Of a stretch of 64,000 bases of DNA, positions 35,801-64,000 are shown piece by piece. Location of the stretch: NCBI GenBank assembly GCA_015183035.1, contig JACZZP010000010.1, positions 868,001 through 932,000 of the forward strand. Reading direction: 5' to 3'. The stretch comes from Meloidogyne chitwoodi (lineage: Eukaryota > Nematoda > Chromadorea > Rhabditida > Meloidogynidae). The notes beneath the pieces are model-generated. The model ran no database searches. It was not told the origin of the DNA and saw only the letters and a list, made by a program, of their open reading frames with translations. Position numbers and translations under genes: made by a program. Numbering within the stretch: the stretch's first letter is position 1; the number at the start of each line of letters is the position of its first letter.

Positions 35801-36887
35801 TTAAGTTACTGTAAAAATTAAAAATAAAAGTAAAAAATATTAAGTAATGAATGGATTATTAAATAATATACTTGCAACATTTTTTAATTGTTTCTTTTTT
35901 TAGTGTGCGATTATTTAATCACTCATAATATAATAATAATGTAACTATGTATGTATATATTTCTTTTAATCCACTCAAATATTTTTATTTTTTCATTATT
36001 TGAGTAGCTAATGTATATAAAAGTACTTTAAAAAATAAATTATGCGCTTCTGAAAGTGGAAATAATGCCTAAATTTAAAAATATATATATATTAAAAGAT
36101 GATGATTAAAATAAATATAATAAAAAAAAATAGCTAAGAAATTAGAAAAAGATGAGAAAAAATAAATTGTAAATAATATGTATAAGCTTTATCTCTTTTT
36201 TTTTTTTAATTTTTTAAATGTATTTTCTAAATAAAAATATAAACTTTTGGATATAAAATATATATTATTTAGTAGGTAATATATTATAGGCTTAATAAAA
36301 AATAAGAATGGAGAGATAGAGGATGGGGAAAAATGATTTAAGCGAACTAGTTAATAGTGAGAAAAATTTTTTTCGGCGATGAAGAGACCAGTTGTAGATC
36401 AAAATGTGATGGGAGAGATTAGTTAAATTAGTAATGTGCCTTTCCCTTTAATGCATCATAAATATTAGTATATTTCCTGTTTTTGTGGTAAAAAATAACC
36501 ATTCATGATTAGATAAAAATAATGGAAATATTTGGCTAAAGCCTTAACAAAATTTGTTAAAAATTAGTTTTAATTTTTACTTTTCTGATTGTGAAATAAG
36601 CTTTTAAAATAGAAAAATATTTTTTAATAAAAAGGTCAATTTTAGTTAATTTCAAATTATTTTTAAATAAGTTAAAAACTTTCAAAAATCATTACACACT
36701 TAATTTGTATTTCTCCTTACGACCTTGGACTTTTTATTATAATTAGGCAAAACAAAATATATTTATATAACTTTTAAAATTAATGTGTCGATTTAGTCGC
36801 ATATGTAGAAATTGTTTTTCATGAAAAATAGCTTACTAATTAAAATTTAACTTTTGCATAATATTAAAAAAAAACCTTGGCTAGAAT
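32813..36887. other. 4 kb AT-rich intergenic region
   Basis: No gene that I can support on either strand. Most of it is A/T runs with no long reading frame. One segment, about 34345-34740, is less AT-rich and includes CCCC/GGGG mini-dyads (near 34531-34547). It might be a distal promoter or an untranslated exon of the LTD-1-like gene, which probably starts upstream of its first coding exon. Confidence 0.5.
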
Positions 36888-37210
36888 TTCTTCAAAAATA
36901 TCAATTTTGTTATTACAAAATCTGTAATTCGAATTGAAGATTTATGGAAGGAAAAAAGTAAATAATTATCAACAGTGAAAGCTCAATAAAAATTAAAGTA
37001 CTTAAAAGTAATTTTTTCCCTAAATACTAAATTAAAACAAATTACACAATAAGTTTAGCATATATTTATTATTAATCAACAAAACAAGAATACAAAGAAA
37101 ATGAGCATACAAATATAGGTGAATAAATCACATTACAAGTATAATGGGGGGAAAATCACATATTACAACAATTTGGGGAGGGAAATCCTATGAGTTTTCT
37201 TTTGTCCACA

Positions 37211-38543
37211 TCACTCGTCGAACTTCTGTCCCGGCTTCGGTTTGCGGCAGAGGACCAAGAATTTACGAACGGATGGTCCTTCGAAGCGCTCGTCCTTGCC
37301 AGCGACGACTGCTGATGCACGCTCGTTGCGAATGTCCGCCTTGCCAAGCGCCTCCTTGCCGTTTGGAAGAGTCAGCAAGCACGGAGAGATGTTTCCTGAA
37401 TTAATAAAAAATTGTAAATTTGGTCAAACATAAAAGAAGTATTATTGTCTTACCTTTCACATGGTCCACGTGTACTGGATAGTAGACTCGGGCATTTTTG
37501 TCGAAGACTGCCGCATCACTCCAGGGACGCCAATGGAAGTCGTATCCACGAACCCGCTCCGGAAGGTCGACGAGAACTTGAATGGAGCCAATGTTGTCGA
37601 CAAAGGCCTTCCCGTTCCAACCGAATGCAGCAGCGACCTAATTTAAAAAAATAAGAAAATTATTTATTTAAAAAGAAAATTATAAATTTACCTTTCCACC
37701 ATTATTCCAGATGCGTCCCATAACCGGCTCGCCATGCACGTACCACAAGGCCACATGTTGTTCATTTGAGTCCCCTGCTGCCACATTCAATGTCCTGTCG
37801 CCGGCCTTCATCGTCTTGTACTGTGGCCATGCGTCTCCCATCCTGATATCTGCCCATTCGTTTAGCATAATGAGCGGTGGTGGCACTGGTGGTGGAGGTG
37901 CCTTGAAGCAAACGGCGCACACACATCCTAGCGGGCCTCCCCTCAGATTTCTGTAAGTATATTTGATACATTTTTAAGCAAAAAATAAAAGAACTGACCT
38001 CATAATGATCTTCATCTCCGAAAGCGGTTTTCCGACGACGCACTCCGCTTTTCCTCCCTGCGAAAAGAAGGCCTCCTCCGTCTTCATGTTCAGGTAGCCG
38101 AGCAATGTACCGCCACTCCTTCCCTCCCAGAGAATGGGCATCGAGTCCCCGCATCTGACCAGCTGCCGCACATCAGTTTTCTCAAAGCGGTCCTTGTACT
38201 TGATCCATTCGTACCAGTAGCCGAGCGAATTGTGGTCTCCTTTGTACTGCAGCACCTTTAAAAAGAAATTAGTTAAATATGTATACTTATTATAAAAATG
38301 TCAACGCACTTGAATCATGCCGCCAAGATCTTCCTTGCCAGTGAGCTCAGCTTTTCCGTACGGGAATGAAGCCTGTACAACGCCACCGTCGTTCCATCCG
38401 TAGCCGTGCACTGGCTTTCCGTTCTTGTACCAAAGAGCGACGTACATGTTCTGCTGGCCCAACACTTTGACTGGATTGTCCGGAAATGGAGCACCGATCG
38501 GATTGAATGCCCATGTGTCCTCCTTCGGAGCAGGGTTTGACAT
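37211..38543 (-). CDS. Four-module repeat protein of unrecognised family (intact palindrome copy)
   Basis: 372 residues in five exons: 38310-38543, 37999-38255, 37692-37950, 37454-37637 and 37211-37395, all with GT-AG introns of 48-58 nt. I do not recognise the family. The protein has an internal A-B-A-B duplication. Module A carries [20 protein letters not shown] with a GGMIQVLQ end (residues about 33-82), and again [20 protein letters not shown] with GSIQVLV (about 228-275). Module B carries MPILW...[20 protein letters not shown] and again ...[20 protein letters not shown] proline loop (APPPPVPPP) and a Cys-rich GCVCAVC separate the halves. There is no signal peptide or membrane segment, so it is probably cytosolic. 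GC-rich third codon positions, unlike all neighbours, suggest high expression. Polyadenylation signal at 37065-37070. Related proteins may exist in other nematodes; I cannot name one with confidence. Confidence 0.9.
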
Positions 38544-38763
38544 AGCTGCTGTAGAGAGCGGTAGAAGTGCAGAGAACAATGGAAGCGATGAGTTGATGTT
38601 GTTGAAGTTGCGGAATGAGCAAATTTGTCTCTTTTTATAGTTAGTTTTTTAAAGTAACAGTGCAACTTATAAAAAGAGACAAATTTGCTCATTCCTCAAC
38701 TTCAACAACATCAACTCATCGCTTCCATTGTTCTCTGCACTTCTACCGCTATCTACAGCAGCT
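38544..38763. promoter_or_regulatory. Mirrored bidirectional promoter at the palindrome centre
   Basis: The 220 bp between the two divergent start codons is itself palindromic apart from the 28-bp spacer. A TATA-like TATAAAAAG lies at 38668-38676 on the + strand and again at 38631-38639 on the - strand, each about 96 bp before its start codon. Both copies therefore have the same core promoter, with the TATA boxes only 28 bp apart and facing away from each other. The TATA role is inferred from sequence and position. Confidence 0.7.
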
Positions 38764-40042
38764 ATGTCAAACCCTGCTCCGAAGGAGGACACATGGGCAT
38801 TCAATCCGATCGGTGCTCCATTTCCGGACAACCCAGTCAAAGTGTTGGGCCAGCAGAACATGTACGTCGCTCTTTGGTACAAGAACGGAAAGCCAGTGCA
38901 CGGCTACGGATGGAACGACGGTGGCGTTGTACAGGCTTCATTCCCGTACGGAAAAGCTGAGCTCACTGGCAAGGAAGATCTTGGCGGCATGATTCAAGTG
39001 CGTTGACATTTTTATAATAAGTATACATATTTAACTAATTTCTTTTTAAAGGTGCTGCAGTACAAAGGAGACCACAATTCGCTCGGCTACTGGTACGAAT
39101 GGATCAAGTACAAGGACCGCTTTGAGAAAACTGATGTGCGGCAGCTGGTCAGATGCGGGGACTCGATGCCCATTCTCTGGGAGGGAAGGAGTGGCGGTAC
39201 ATTGCTCGGCTACCTGAACATGAAGACGGAGGAGGCCTTCTTTTCGCAGGGAGGAAAAGCGGAGTGCGTCGTCGGAAAACCGCTTTCGGAGATGAAGATC
39301 ATTATGAGGTCAGTTCTTTTATTTTTTGCTTAAAAATGTATCAAATATACTTACAGAAATCTGAGGGGAGGCCCGCTAGGATGTGTGTGCGCCGTTTGCT
39401 TCAAGGCACCTCCACCACCAGTGCCACCACCGCTCATTATGCTAAACGAATGGGCAGATATCAGGATGGGAGACGCATGGCCACAGTACAAGACGATGAA
39501 GGCCGGCGACAGGACATTGAATGTGGCAGCAGGGGACTCAAATGAACAACATGTGGCCTTGTGGTACGTGCATGGCGAGCCGGTTATGGGACGCATCTGG
39601 AATAATGGTGGAAAGGTAAATTTATAATTTTCTTTTTAAATAAATAATTTTCTTATTTTTTTAAATTAGGTCGCTGCTGCATTCGGTTGGAACGGGAAGG
39701 CCTTTGTCGACAACATTGGCTCCATTCAAGTTCTCGTCGACCTTCCGGAGCGGGTTCGTGGATACGACTTCCATTGGCGTCCCTGGAGTGATGCGGCAGT
39801 CTTCGACAAAAATGCCCGAGTCTACTATCCAGTACACGTGGACCATGTGAAAGGTAAGACAATAATACTTCTTTTATGTTTGACCAAATTTACAATTTTT
39901 TATTAATTCAGGAAACATCTCCGTGCTTGCTGACTCTTCCAAACGGCAAGGAGGCGCTTGGCAAGGCGGACATTCGCAACGAGCGTGCATCAGCAGTCGT
40001 CGCTGGCAAGGACGAGCGCTTCGAAGGACCATCCGTTCGTAA
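38764..40042 (+). pseudogene. Palindrome copy of the four-module gene with a 2-bp deletion in the last exon
   Basis: Mirror copy of the gene at 37211-38543, with exons starting at 38764, 39052, 39357, 39670 and 39912 and the same splice sites. In the last exon the repeat CTCT of the intact copy is CT (near 39921-39924), so after KGNIS the frame changes and ends at a stop at 40040-40042. This replaces about 57 C-terminal residues (half of the last module) with about 40 unrelated ones. The original frame, ending KPGQKFDE, would stop at 40092-40094. The first four exons are unharmed, so a shortened protein could still be made. A dinucleotide slippage or a sequencing error in one arm would explain it; I call it a probable pseudogene with that reservation. 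Confidence 0.7.
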
Positions 40043-40417
40043 ATTCTTGGTCCTCTGCCGCAAACCGAAGCCGGGACAGAAGTTCGACGAGTGATGTGGA
40101 CAAAAGAAAACTCATAGGATTTCCCTCCCCAAATTGTTGTAATATGTGATTTTCCCCCCATTATACTTGTAATGTGATTTATTCACCTATATTTGTATGC
40201 TCATTTTCTTTGTATTCTTGTTTTGTTGATTAATAATAAATATATGATAAACTTATTGTGTAATTTGTTTTAATTTAGTATTTAGGGAAAAAATTACTTT
40301 TAAGTACTTTAATTTTTATTGAGCTTTCACTGTTGATAATTATTTACTTTTTTCCTTCCATAAATCTTCAATTCGAATTACAGATTTTGTAATAACAAAA
40401 TTGATATTTTTGAAGAA

Positions 40418-57853: not shown

Positions 57854-60800
57854 TATTTTATTTTATTATTTATTTTATTAATCCCTAAAAGAATTATTTA
57901 ATATTAAAATTAAATTTTAATTTTTATTTAAAAAATAAATTTAAATAAAATTTTATTTTAAAATAATTTACGTATTTCCGGTCTTTGTAATAATATTTAA
58001 ATTAAAAAAATGTCCTTTTTTATTAATTATAAAGATTGCGTGAACATACAAAGTTTAAAATATAAAAAGGGCTTCAATAAAATTAAAAAATTAAAATTAT
58101 TTAAAATAAAATAAAATAAAATATATATAATTATATAAAAAAGAGAGTGTATTTAAATAATTTTATTTAAATTTTGTCATTTTATATATCCGCCTTTTTT
58201 TAATTAATTTTATTTCCAAAATAAATTAAAAATATTAAATTATATGCAAATTAACTAATTTGGAAAAAGAAAAATTAAATTAAAAATATTAACTTATTTT
58301 TATAATTTAATTTTAAAAAATATCCCATCAGTTGAAAAAAGAAACAAGGCACGAGAAAAAAAATATTATAAAATTATTTATTAAGAAAATGAGAAGAAAA
58401 AGGTTTTGAGTGGGTTAAAGTTATGGGAAAAATATTTAAAAAATTTAAAAAAAAAAGTAAGTCCGTCATATTTTCAAAAGAAAACTTTTTAAAAAAAATT
58501 AAAAAGTCAAATTTTGTTTTTTAATTTTAATTAAATAATAATAATAAAAATGATTACGTAAAAATAAATTCACGCAAACTTTTATTTTAATTAATTAATT
58601 AATATTAAAAAAAAAAAGTGAAAAAAGACTAAAATAAATAAAAGTTTACTTTTTTTAATAAATTAAATAAAAATATATTAATTTAAAATTAATTAAATTA
58701 AAAAATAATTTAAGAGAATACTTTTATTGGTGTTTAATTATTTAGTAAATTTTAAAATAAATAAATAAATAAATAATATCAACTTGTTATTAGTAATATT
58801 TAAATATAAATAAATATATTATATTGGGCGGAGACTTAATAAAAAATTAGAAAAATAATAATATTATTTTTTTATAAAAGTACTTATAATTGGTTATATA
58901 AATATTCTTAAGAAAATTAAATGTCTCCAAACTTTGATATTTTTAAAAATTAAATGCTAACATTTAATGAAAAATATATATTTTAAATTAAAATACTTGG
59001 AAATAAAATTAAAAGAAAAAAGATTTTAATTTTTGAAGGAAAATAATTTTTAAAATTAAAAAATATTTAAATATATATTTTAAAAATTAAAAAAGAAACA
59101 GACCATTAAATTAAATAAATTTTAAAATAAAAATTAAAATCTTAAAAAAGAAGTTTAAATTGCCAATTTAAAGACAATTATTAAAATAACAAGAATAGAA
59201 ATATATATTTAAATAAATGACATTTAAAAAAACTAAAAATTAAATTTTTAGAAAAAATGACAAATAATTTTGCAAGAAAATTAAATAAAAAAATTAATTA
59301 TTTTAATATTAACATGCAAAAAATAAAAAAAATATTCTAAAAATAACTAAAAAATGATTATAAATTTATAAGAAAATGAGTATATTTAATTAAATTTAAA
59401 AAAATAAAAGACAAAAGAAATATTTTTGTGCAACATTTAATTAAAAAAATAAAATAAATAAATATACGTAATTATTATTTTGACGCAAAATTAAATCAAA
59501 ATACAAAAAGATGCAATAATAAAAATTAAAAAAAATAAAATTTTTACTAAATTAAGAAAATACGTATTAAATTAAAATAAAATAAATTTAAAAAATAATT
59601 ATTTAATTTTAGAAAATATATACTAATTTATATATATTTAAGTATTTATTTTTTATTTAATTAAAAATAATAATATTATAAATATTTTAATTTAATAAAT
59701 TATTTTTATTTAATTTAAAAAAAATAATATTTTTAAAATTTATTTTTAGATTATGTCATTTTTAAATGTTAAAAAAATACATTTAAAAATATCATTTGTT
59801 AATAATAATAATATTTTTAAATAAATTCAATTTAATACTCAAATTACAAAATAATTATTTTATTAAAACCAATCCCTTCTTTCCTTTACTTTTCTCCTTT
59901 CTTTTCTAAAAATAAAAAAAGAAAAAATATCTAAAAAATGTTGCACTGTCTCAAAAAATAAATAAATAATTTAAATAAATTATAATTGAATAATAATACT
60001 ACTAAAATTGGATATATTTATAAAACACGTGATAAAAATTAAAAAAATAAAAGAATCAAATTTCAAACCAAAAAAAGATTTTTTAAAAATAAAAAATAAA
60101 AATTGGGATCAATTTTAGCGGAAATAAAACTAAAATAAGAAAAATATAATTAATTAATTAATATATTTATTAAATCACACTTTTTTATAATATAAGTAAA
60201 AATTATTAATTAATTATTATTAAACTGCGCAAATTCCCCTATGGCAGAAATAACTGGAAAAAAATGAAAGGCAGAAGAAAAAGCTACTAAATTAAAGAAA
60301 AGAGAAAATTAAAAATAATATATTTTTTTTAATATTTGAAAAAATATTTTAAAAATTAATTAATATTTAAATAAAATATTTAATAATAAAAATAATATTT
60401 TTATTTAAATAATAATAATAATTATTATTATTATTTTAAATTTTCACATTTAATAAATTTTCAGACTTTCTCATAAAGAATATAAATTTAATAGAAAATG
60501 TCAAAAAAAAAGTAAAAAAATATTTAAAAAAATTTCACATAAATTCATGACTTTTTTTTGTTTGTTTTGTATATTAATTTAAATAAAAAATAATTAAAAA
60601 AAGTATGGGAATAAGCAACTTTTTTTTAGTTTTTATTTTAAATTTAATAAATAAAAATAATTTAAATTAATTAATTTAAAGAAAATTAGTAAAATAAATA
60701 AATTTTTAAAATTTCTTTGATTTTACAATAAATAAACAAATAAATATAAATTTAAATTTGCGCAACAAAGAGAGAAAGAAAGTATTTATTTATTTATTTA

Positions 60801-63678
60801 TTTAACTTTTAAAAATTCCATCGGATAAAAATAAATAAATTCCTCAAATATATTATTGCCAAATAAATTAAAATAAATTATTTAAAATATCCTTTAATTA
60901 AAATATTTAAATTATATAATTAATTAATTGTCGGTCAAAAGAAGTGTTAAAGGATATATTATTATTATGGCTATTTATATTTAATAATAAAAATAATCTT
61001 TTGTGGATGAAAAAAAATTATTTAAAAAATACCAGTGACTAGACAAAATGCCAATAAATAAAAATATTTATTCTAAAAATGGCTAGACTTAAAAGTGAAA
61101 ATAAACAAATAAGGAAAAATTAGAAAATAAAAAATAATTTAAAAAAGGAATAAATATAAAAAGATAAAATATTTTTTTATTTTATTTTTGACATTTGGCT
61201 ATATAAATAAATATACTTTAATTCTTTTTTATACAGCTGACCACTTTACATATATTACTCAATAAGTAAAGCTTTTCTACCTAAAAAAATAAATAAAAAT
61301 AAAAATAAAAAATTGTTTTTGTTGGTCACTCAAAAAATAAAAATAAAATGAAAATATTTATTTTTTATTTATTATTAATATTTTTCTTTGTTTTTATTTA
61401 TTTTATCCAATAATACCTAATTATTATTTATTAAATATTATTTTTAGATAATTTGTGAGAAAAACAAATTAATAATTATTTTTTAAAAAATAAATAAAAA
61501 TAATTATGTATTAATAATAATTCTAAAATTAATTTTTATTTATTTTTAACTAATAATTAAATAAAAATATTATAATTTATTTTATTTTATTATATAAATA
61601 ATAATTATAATATTAATTAATTAGTGGTGGACTTTTAAAAGATTTTAAAATTTTAAAATTATTAAAAATGTTTTTTTTTAATAATTTACACTTTTAATAT
61701 TTTCTAAAAATAGTAAAAATATTAAAAAATTTAAGCCAAAAAAATATTTAAAAAAACATTGTTTTTATTTTATGTTTTAATACTTCCTTTATTTTATTAG
61801 TCTAATGGATATATTTATTTATTTATTTTATTATTATTTTAAAAAATAAAAAATATATTTTAGATTTATTTAGAAAATAAATAAATAAATATATTATTAT
61901 TATTTTAAATAATTTTTTATTTAAAAATTAAATATTTTTAAAAATAAAAAAAATAAAATTTTAATTTATATATTACAAATATGAAATATTTTTTAAATAA
62001 TTTTTCTAAAAAAATTAGAGAATCTGCATTAAATAAAAATAGAAAAAATTAAAAAAAAGTTTAGAAGACAACTTTTTTGAAGGAATGCAAATTAAAATAA
62101 TAATATTATTTTTAAATAAAAATATAAATTTATTTATATATTTGTCACATGTTATTTTAAAAATATAAATTTATATATTTGAAATTATTTATTTATTTAT
62201 TTAAAAAAATAAAGTTTAATCTTTAAATTTATTTTATTTTATTTAATTAAAATTATTAATATCTAAAAAATTAAACAAAAAAAAATTTTTAAATAAAAAT
62301 TTTGAGCTAAATATATAAATAATTAATTAATTAATTAAATAACTTTTTTAAAACAAAATATATTTATTTGGAGAATATTCGTGATCTAAATAATTTATTT
62401 ATAAAAATGTTTTTAAAAGTGCCAATATTGTTTTTGTTTTTAATGTTTTTATTTTGAAAATTGTGTAACAAAAATAGCTTAGTTAGTAATATATTGGTGA
62501 AGGTGATGAATGAGAAAAGAATATTTAATAATATAAAATAATAAATAATTTAATATTATTATTTTTATTATTATTATTTAAATAATTAATATATTATAAT
62601 AAAGTAATAATAATAATAATAATATAATTTAAAATTTATTTTATTTTTTATTAAAAAATAATATAAAATATATTTTTTATAAAATTATAAAAAATTAGTA
62701 ATATTATTAAAATTAAATAATTAATAAATTAAAATAAATAAAATAAATATAATTTAATAATATTTTGTAAAAAAGAAAAACATTTAAATGCAGTCAAATA
62801 ATAAATTATTTATTATTATTATAATATTACAAATAGTTAGTTTGGACAAAGATTAAAAAATAAATAATTTTAAAATAAAAAAGAATTGTTTTAATATTTT
62901 TCACAAACATTTTTTTATTTTTACAAAGAAAAAGAAAAGTGATTTCCGGTGCATTTATTTGCGTTTTAAATTTTTTTAATTTGTTTTAAAATTATTTTAT
63001 TTAAAAATTGTAATAAAATAATTGATTATTTAAATATTTTTTATTTTTTAAATCAATTTAGCTATATTTTACTAATCTAAAAAATAAATATAATTTTTTT
63101 CAAAATCCAAATAAATATAAAATATTATTTTAAATTAAAAGATTAATTTAATTAAATTATAAAAAATAATAAGAAAAAGGAAGGGAAATGTTTTAAAAAA
63201 ATAATATTATTTTTTTAAATAGCATTTATTAATAAATAAATAATAATAATTAATAAAAACAAATATTATTATTTAAAAATAAAAAATGTTATAATTTAAT
63301 TAATATTTAAAAATAATAAGTAATATTCTTCTTTATTGCAAAAAACTATTCAGAATAAATATTTAATAAATTATTAAATAATTATTTCCTTTACTTTATA
63401 AATATTTTAAGTTTATTAAAAAATAATCAAATAAATACAAATTAAGTTCAGCTTTATTTAAAAAATTAATTTAAAATTTAAAAATATAAAATAATTAAAT
63501 ATATAATTTATATTTTAAATATTTAAGAGTTGAAGAAATAAAGAAATAATTATTTTAATAAAATAAAATTTAAATAACAGAAATAATAATTATATTTATA
63601 TTTTAAAAATAAAAAAGCTCATTTATTTATTTATTTATTTATTTATTTGTGGCAATATTTGACAAATTAATTATTTAT
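57854..63678. repeat. 5.8 kb extremely AT-rich, low-complexity region
   Basis: Almost nothing but A/T words, with TTTA/TAAA tetranucleotide tracts, e.g. (TAAA)n near 58757-58776, (TTTA)n near 60784-60804 and (ATTT)n at 63621-63648. No reading frame with normal amino-acid composition on either strand, and no RNA gene recognised. It may contain the upstream control region of the insulin-like gene. Confidence 0.6.
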
Positions 63679-64000
63679 TTATTTATTTTTATTATTATTA
63701 TTAAAATCTTTAATTGATTGTTCCATTTTTTGTCGATGTGCAATTCTAGTAACACCTAATGCTGTATATCTTGAACGATCAAAATATAATAAATCTGATC
63801 CTTTAATTTTAGAAAATGATAAATAATATTCTGATAATTCTAAAAATAAAAGCCATTCACAAACATCTAAATAAGTCCATTCTTTTATTGGTTTCTTAAT
63901 ATTTTATTTATTAATTAATTAATATAATAATTAATATTTACTTTTTTAAATTCTCCAGTTTTTTCAATTTCTTCATTTATTATTAAATCAATTTCTAATT
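63679..64000 (-). CDS. SAM-domain protein, C-terminal fragment (runs off the right edge)
   Basis: Only the last two exons are in the window. The C-terminal exon encodes a sterile alpha motif: IKEWTYLDVCEWLLFLELSE (helix 1 with the W-T-x2-D-V-x2-W-L pattern), YYLSFSKIKGSDLLYFDRSR, then YTALGVTRIAHRQKMEQSI with the conserved LGV...HR end-helix. It finishes with an Asn/Lys tail and stop at 63679-63681. The upstream exon (about 63945-64000) reads EIDLIINEEIEKTGEFKK, with a donor at AAAAAA|GTAAAT. SAM domains mediate protein-protein, sometimes RNA, binding; which SAM protein this is cannot be told from the fragment. A domain at the extreme C-terminus is compatible with many families. Confidence 0.7.

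Follow-up and report, generated by a model that had tools for sequence, protein, structure and literature searches.

The window, by which we mean the whole 64,000-nucleotide stretch of Meloidogyne chitwoodi DNA analysed here, contains a near-perfect palindrome. Each of its arms carries one copy of a gene that, by its predicted protein, is MFP2b (MSP fibre protein 2), a sperm cytoskeleton and sperm-motility protein. The two copies lie head to head, with the following features (positions are those of the window):

36888 to 38639, minus strand: left palindrome arm, one MFP2b unit from the TATA box to past the 3' end, 1752 bp
38640 to 38667, no strand: non-palindromic centre, 28 bp, flanked by two outward TATA boxes
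38668 to 40417, plus strand: right palindrome arm, 1750 bp
37211 to 38543, minus strand: left MFP2b gene, 372 aa; exons 38543-38310, 38255-37999, 37950-37692, 37637-37454 and 37395-37211
38764 to 40042, plus strand: right MFP2b copy, 354 aa as assembled; exons 38764-38997, 39052-39308, 39357-39615, 39670-39853 and 39912-40042
38632 to 38639, minus strand: TATA box of the left copy, TATAAAAA, putative promoter by its position
38668 to 38675, plus strand: TATA box of the right copy, TATAAAAA, likewise a putative promoter by position
37065 to 37070, minus strand: AATAAA signal of the left copy
40235 to 40240, plus strand: AATAAA signal of the right copy
36869 to 37051, minus strand: outer part of the left arm plus some 19 bp of the adjoining left flank; second copy at C2:1024957-1025140, 79% identical

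The left copy matches PF12150 with 341.7 bits against a cut-off of 24 in a profile search, and it matches residues 1-367 of Ascaris MFP2B (PDB 2bjr) with an E value of 5.5e-148. The nearest proteins also point to the genus Meloidogyne. The DM9/DUF3421 family was discarded: PF11901 gave no match, with control genomes equally silent, and PF12150 fits instead. Both copies are probably expressed in sperm, as membership of this family suggests (PMC8299296). The sequence-only reading had described two head-to-head copies of one gene: two five-exon MFP2b copies are indeed present, but as assembled only the left reading frame is open throughout, the right one being frameshifted in exon 5, the last. 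The GC content is 54.5% in the exons and 17.8% in the introns of the MFP2b gene on this contig (C2), and 52.8 and 20.7%, respectively, in its paralogue on contig C12 (see below). GC-biased conversion was rejected as the cause of the high exon values: the introns are low, the C12 gene is alike, and codon choice explains the pattern better.

Realignment returned exactly the arm coordinates, arm lengths and 28-bp centre proposed earlier, and it confirmed that the arms are nearly identical: they differ by four substitutions (left-arm positions 37058, 38475, 38556 and 38611) and one 2-bp indel (left 37384-37385), corresponding to 99.77% identity over 1750 aligned bases, and the four introns, 214 bp in total, are identical. 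The surroundings had been called unrelated, and the 600-bp flanks show no mutual inverted resemblance, with a local score of 21 that falls within the range of 200 shuffles (mean 19, maximum 30). The right arm terminates at the inner part of the segment 36869 to 37051; since this wider segment includes the left arm edge and the right arm stops inside it, the left edge looks original. Towards the centre, the arms terminate at the two TATA boxes, which stand back to back with 28 bp between them and, by their position, probably act as working promoters of the twins. Three of the four substitutions lie within the 165 bp closest to the centre (p 0.003, for a test picked after the data had been seen), a crowding in the same direction as at the MSP twins described below.

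We favour, with a probability of roughly 0.7, the reading that the window holds an MFP2b twin whose copies face away from a compact core promoter that they share, that its arms are kept alike mainly by intrachromosomal gene conversion, and that this layout is recurrent in sperm genes. Both copies would be read outward from a core promoter made of the two back-to-back TATA boxes; one arm would occasionally be copied onto the other, and this arm-to-arm conversion would keep the two nearly identical; and the layout, common to the genes for MSP and small MSP-domain proteins, would reflect a recurrent doubling and homogenising of high-output sperm genes. The benefit of the twin layout may be the dosage of sperm protein. 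It had been suggested that such a palindrome is either very recent or maintained by conversion. This was the right pair of alternatives: the other loci favour conversion, but the window's pair alone cannot decide between the two.

If the palindrome arose by a recent inverted duplication, the right arm was copied from the left unit not long ago, with fold-back template switching in the promoter as one conceivable mechanism, and the arms would resemble each other only for lack of time to diverge. With four substitutions in 1750 bp the palindrome could be young, the left unit looks original since its edge lies inside a wider segment missing from the right arm, and the assembled right copy is already disrupted. 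The frameshift, if real, has neither been repaired nor spread to the left arm, which counts against conversion. The diverged MFP2b paralogue on C12 bears on both readings. It is 79% identical to the C2 gene at the DNA level, with differences mainly at synonymous sites (dS 0.87, dN 0.056), and its head-to-head partner survives as a relic of exon 1 that carries indels (C12:796386-796601, minus strand); the outward TATA boxes of this locus are 39 bp apart. Under recent duplication, the relic and its TATA layout demand two separate inversions, both centred within a few dozen bases of one and the same point. Yet when the four copies of promoter plus exon 1 are compared, they cluster by locus: of 323 shared columns, 31 set C2 apart from C12 and none pairs arms across the two loci. 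Between the C2 and C12 spacers, no significant homology was seen (p 0.20-0.26). Separate inverted duplications would predict this grouping equally, and it thus counts against a firm claim of conversion, as does the extension of the window's arms by about 170 bp past the C2-C12 homology. Intron 4 is identical at 53 of 57 positions between the two genes, introns 1-3 at only 83 of 132 (p 8e-6), the pattern expected if a stretch had once been copied between the loci.

Stronger evidence for conversion comes from the MSP-domain twins. In the three of seven pairs whose DNA was read (on C12, C10 and C4, in this order), the promoters are 46%, 70% and 91% identical between the arms and the gene bodies, introns included, 98-100%. 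At the C10 MSP twin, 58 of 83 positions agree from TATA box to ATG, followed by 94/96 in exon 1, 52/53 in the intron and 296/298 in exon 2; at the C4 MSP twin, the corresponding values are 80/88 and then 96/96, 60/60 and 291/291; at the C12 MSP-domain twin, the promoter agrees at 28 of 61 positions and the following stretch at 358 of 358. The contrast between UTR and intron identity is significant at both C10 (p 1.2e-5) and C4 (p 0.02). This step is predicted by arm-to-arm gene conversion and not by a recent duplication of whole units: the three twins combine old promoters with young bodies. Moreover, the spacer of C10 is homologous to that of C4 once one of them is flipped (none of 5000 shuffles attained the score, among 20 spacer comparisons), and the gene bodies contain 25 sites that distinguish the two loci and none that distinguish the arms. 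Since the spacers are homologous and the differences split loci rather than arms, the pair predates the duplications of the locus. At C10 and C4, the inverted structure recurs at homologous loci, and the arms resemble each other more closely inside a locus than from one locus to the other. The 271-bp C10 centre matches four other MSP pair centres over its full length (97, 94, 86 and 82%). The twins do not all behave alike, as the pair C5:697009/697744 indicates: its members score differently (36.6 and 50.7 bits), and its centre aligns with that of C10 equally well in either sense (82%). Taken with these loci, a recent duplication as the source of the window's palindrome appears rather unlikely, and homogenisation of its own pair by conversion is the most probable reading.

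Among the families compared, the head-to-head layout is concentrated in the MSP-domain genes: 14 of 31 loci with MSP-domain matches form seven close head-to-head pairs, with 475-555 bp between the matched stretches, whereas three other families, with 62 loci between them, yielded none (Fisher p 1.8e-8, with the paired loci not independent of each other). Head-to-head pairs occur on the numbered contigs C2, C4, C5, C10 and C12. The distance limit for a pair was 3 kb, and all 31 PF00635 matches were used. For the comparison, 31 of 45 PF00149 and 11 of 21 PF00022 matches were counted, those set aside being further exons on the same strand that adjoin counted matches; 88 PF00012 matches were merged by hand into 33 stretches, setting aside four same-strand matches adjoining them. 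The profile search of the genome scored the best candidates only (for HSP70, 73 of 100), and the locus counts of the families are therefore lower bounds. Nematodes have sperm-specific metallophosphatases, and PF00149 was first searched as a family with sperm members and only later counted as a control. No head-to-head pair was seen among the PF00149 matches; because of this, the layout does not reach every sperm gene family. In the sperm twins of the two Pfam families, the TATA boxes are 26-39 bp apart. As a signature of the genome this pattern was rejected, as it occurs at 466 places genome-wide versus 1971 for the reversed control.

Could the palindrome be an artefact, in which the assembly fused two alleles or relied on a chimeric fold-back read? 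The arms are nearly identical, and a small indel like that in exon 5 is typical of consensus errors in long reads. However, both flanks are unique, whereas a fold-back chimera would repeat one of them, and on other contigs this layout is found with arms that diverge close to the centre. These features of the assembled DNA weaken the concern without removing it, and we consider a false join improbable. The idea that the palindrome feeds RNAi is most implausible: transcription through both arms could yield an RNA that folds into a double strand, but nothing was observed in its support. The proposed link was rejected on promoter geometry. The promoters lie in the middle and face outward, and both copies come with a separate AATAAA (40235, plus strand; 37070, minus strand), from which we infer that neither gene's transcript spans both arms; in addition, the left copy keeps an open frame of 372 aa, and the C2 and C12 genes diverge with a dN far below dS (see above). 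A mobile element with long terminal inverted repeats around a short centre is just as improbable, since the arm edges have no target-site duplication or direct repeat, MFP2b is the sole gene predicted in the arms, and no further full copy was found in the genome search.

Inverted gene pairs that are kept alike are already known from Caenorhabditis, where paralogous pairs at F44E5.4/F44E5.5, the HSP-16 locus and F42F12 are kept as inverted repeats (Zhao et al. 2007, PMC1803023). As in those pairs, which are divergent or convergent, the window holds adjacent, opposite-oriented and near-identical paralogues whose identity extends to non-coding DNA, and for both conversion has been proposed. The arms of the Caenorhabditis pairs are more alike within than between species, the pairs duplicate as a unit, and some decay (PMC1803023). 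They differ from the twins described here in three respects: their spacers measure 126 bp at F44E5 and 414 bp at HSP-16 (PMC1803023), as compared to 26-39 bp between the TATA boxes; the genes here are sperm genes of two Pfam families; and three MSP-domain loci here show diverged promoters beside identical bodies. The hsp16-1/hsp16-48 locus of C. elegans is a 3.8-kb inverted repeat with identical arms, for which conversion was favoured (Russnak and Candido 1985, as cited in PMC1803023 and PMC3966223). Its total length is similar to that of the window's palindrome; unlike the single-gene arms here, each arm is a divergent two-gene pair, with about 416 bp between the modules (PMC1803023, PMC3966223). 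The MSP genes of Caenorhabditis form clusters of tandem duplicates with conversion among neighbours (PMC5765362), again a sperm gene family homogenised by conversion; these clusters are described as tandem, and the text of that source mentions neither a head-to-head nor a palindromic arrangement, nor Meloidogyne. Within the genus, mitotic Meloidogyne species have palindromic collinear blocks, one in M. incognita and three in M. arenaria, with none in M. hapla (PMC5465968). These are likewise inverted duplicates on one scaffold, but they are multi-gene blocks with Ks values like those of other duplicated regions (PMC5465968), unlike the single genes with near-zero divergence found here. In our literature search, we found no paper that describes sperm genes in such a palindromic twin layout.

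It is tempting to generalise, and we regard the following as evenly poised: in root-knot nematodes, the MSP, small MSP-domain and MFP2b genes would be palindromic twins firing from a minimal bidirectional promoter, in which copying rewrites the gene bodies and stops at the promoter; the layout would spread as a unit and be long kept, copy-correcting male genes in the manner of Y palindromes while being dispersed over several contigs. Mammalian Y palindromes contain testis genes, and their arms are far longer than those of the window. Their inverted arms are kept alike by conversion (PMC3403216, PMC3723533), as proposed here, and they sit on a sex-limited chromosome, in contrast to the gene-sized arms on several nematode contigs. 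If the idea holds, palindromes the size of a single gene harbour a class of male-germline genes, and a long-standing question becomes testable, namely whether testis-gene palindromes are a remedy for a non-recombining chromosome or a general way of doubling and homogenising genes in high demand. The sharp step in identity between promoter and body would provide a natural map of where conversion tracts end. Since Meloidogyne spans sexual and fully asexual species (PMC5465968), the asexual ones would offer a test of the fate of the twins once sperm are hardly needed.

Long inverted repeats of this kind had been called rare, which is only partly right: the base rate was surveyed in 200 kb of one contig (C2:800001-1000000), a sample that includes the window's palindrome itself, and this stretch holds a second palindromic structure, a cuticlin pair with matching arms of more than 1 kb. 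Thus, inverted pairs occur outside sperm genes as well. Inverted HSP70 copies were also seen about 40 kb apart on C29, beyond the 3-kb limit used for pairs.

The source assembly, a nematode genome of 47.5 Mb in 30 contigs, holds the window as C2:868001-932000, C2 being one of the numbered contigs. A near-perfect palindrome had been proposed here by the sequence-only reading, and the inverted-repeat comparison recovered exactly its place and size, with a gap of 28 bp between the arms:

36888-38639, left arm, minus-strand gene copy
38668-40417, right arm, plus-strand gene copy

The arms differ by four substitutions and one 2-bp indel, and the flanks share no resemblance, again as proposed. The outer end of the left arm is part of a segment that extends beyond the arm boundary by about 19 bp and has a second copy at C2:1024957-1025140 (79% identity), whereas the right arm lacks this continuation. 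The left edge thus appears to be the original one, and the right edge resembles the place where a copy was joined. The arm ends at the centre coincide exactly with two outward-facing TATAAAAA boxes (38632-38639 and 38668-38675), and the non-palindromic 28-bp centre is the interval between them. Since the TATA boxes face outward and each copy has its own AATAAA signal, the twins should be transcribed outward, with neither RNA holding both arms. This geometry argues against the suggestion that the arms form a hairpin feeding RNAi. Elsewhere in the window, the GC content drops to about 11% at 58000-64000, far under that of most of the window.

Each arm carries one five-exon gene. The left copy has an open frame of 372 aa, and the right copy, in which the 2-bp difference falls in exon 5, encodes 354 aa as assembled. 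The protein is MFP2b, as judged by Pfam PF12150 (341.7 bits) and by Ascaris MFP2B (2bjr, E 5.5e-148), and its closest relatives are Meloidogyne proteins (93 and 89%). According to PMC8299296, MFP2 is a partner of the major sperm protein (MSP), and the C. elegans homologue is found in spermatocyte fibrous bodies and the spermatozoan pseudopod. By family membership, the copies in the window would act in sperm.

Genome searches found one further MFP2b locus, on contig C12. Its intact gene encodes 368 aa and shares 79% DNA identity with the C2 gene (dS 0.87, dN 0.056 by simple counting). Two protein entries, both with M. enterolobii members, are each closer to a different locus (P0001: 93.3% to C2 and 89.7% to C12; P0002: 90.2% and 92.9%, respectively), so the two loci probably predate the split from M. 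enterolobii. The C12 gene lies head to head with a relic, and the TATA boxes are likewise outward, with 39 bp between them:

C12:796386-796601, minus strand, indel-bearing remains of promoter and exon 1

The spacers of the two loci have diverged so far that they show no significant homology (p 0.20-0.26). Identity between the loci is higher in intron 4 (53/57) than in introns 1-3 (83/132; p 8e-6), and higher in exon 5 (169/185) than in exons 1-4 (767/922; p 0.005), as if this end had been copied between the loci in the past or were under some constraint.

The same layout recurs at other sperm genes. Among the 31 matches listed in a genome search for the MSP domain, 14 make up seven head-to-head pairs, on C4, C5 (two), C10 (three) and C12, with 475-555 bp separating the matched stretches. 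No such pair was present in 62 loci of metallophosphatases, actins and HSP70 (Fisher p 1.8e-8 against these three control families). Metallophosphatases have sperm members in nematodes, and their zero therefore limits the reach of the twin layout among sperm genes. The arms were compared as DNA in three of the seven pairs:

C10:1179750-1180850, MSP pair, protein matches 2bvu and 1msp
C4:1687560-1688660, MSP pair, protein matches 2bvu and 1msp
C12:1196000-1196915, pair encoding a small protein with an MSP domain, similar to 1m1s and 1row

All three have outward-facing TATA boxes (gaps of 26, 29 and 34 bp, respectively; TATAAA in the C12 pair). The pairs are not uniform, since the two scores of the C5:697009/697744 pair are unequal. 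Moreover, some pairs apparently decay: C10:656503-656908 looks like what is left of an MSP twin centre and gene. On C30, two MSP-domain matches of 54.0 bits each (725396-725587, plus; 754053-754244, minus) face each other 28 kb apart and perhaps belong to a larger inverted duplication.

The arms of the C10 pair match at 58/83 positions from TATA to ATG, but at 94/96 in exon 1, 52/53 in the intron and 296/298 in exon 2 (UTR versus intron, p 1.2e-5). The C4 pair has 80/88 in the leader and 96/96, 60/60 and 291/291 in the gene body (p 0.02 for the same comparison), and the C12 pair has 28/61, then 19/19 just before the ATG and 358/358 past it. The C12 pattern is also compatible with the body alone having been duplicated late. 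A diverged promoter with a near-identical intron a few dozen bases away contradicts a joint inverted duplication: on these alignments, one event copying promoter and body together cannot give an old promoter and a new intron. Moreover, the 271-bp C10 centre matches four other pair centres over its full length (97, 94, 86 and 82%); in the opposite sense the identities are lower for the C10:989 (76%), C4 (81%) and C10:1201 (74%) centres, its own reverse gives 75%, and the C5 centre gives 82% in either sense. Once one of them is flipped, the spacers of C10 and C4 prove homologous (score reached by 0/5000 shuffles). In the C10 and C4 gene bodies, 25 sites split the loci and none the arms; near the centre, one splits loci, one splits arms and three cross. 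The shared centres and these site patterns indicate that this pair is older than the locus duplications that spread it, its bodies having since been homogenised within each locus. Arm-to-arm conversion at the MSP pairs is thus well supported.

By analogy with the MSP pairs, and given the C12 relic, we put the probability of conversion at the MFP2b pair in the window at about 0.68. Its substitutions weakly follow the trend of the MSP pairs, three of the four being no more than 165 bp from the centre (post hoc p 0.003). That the palindrome is instead a recent duplication seems less likely. In the four-copy MFP2b alignment, 31 of 323 common columns split C2 from C12 and none of the 323 pairs one C2 arm with one C12 arm against the other two, a pattern expected both from two inverted duplications and from a single old pair homogenised at each locus; the spacers are too diverged to discriminate between the two.

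Inverted paralogous pairs with arms kept alike within species, for which conversion was proposed, are known from Caenorhabditis (PMC1803023) and resemble the MFP2b pair in orientation and arm similarity; a review covers conversion among Caenorhabditis paralogues in both orientations (PMC3966223). For Caenorhabditis MSP genes, PMC5765362 describes conversion inside clusters, whereas 14 of the 31 MSP-domain matches here form head-to-head pairs. In a root-knot nematode msp study (PMC2478646), PCR pieces were sequenced and the word "inverted" is absent. The Meloidogyne palindromes in PMC5465968 and PMC12643312 are multi-gene blocks or telomere-like repeat arrays, whereas each arm in the window holds one gene. 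No paper on nematode sperm genes as head-to-head palindromic twins was among the matches listed, in a search with most subscription journals outside it.

Palindromic gene pairs are not limited to sperm genes, as shown by a cuticlin pair found in 200 kb of C2:

C2:842352-847972, tail-to-tail cuticlin (CUT_N) genes, palindromic, about 60 kb from the MFP2b palindrome

Its arms (1112 bp, 99.5%) and self-inverted centre (1118 bp, 97.7%) are separated by stretches that do not match. Three outward TATA pairs on C2 (446427-446470, 495075-495118 and 593376-593419) have mutually related, TAACACTCCAACTT-like 28-bp spacers and are possibly another twin-promoter family. Finally, HSP70 matches recur inverted about 40 kb apart at C29:2100677-2174226, two at an equal 74.9 bits, which is likely a large inverted duplication.
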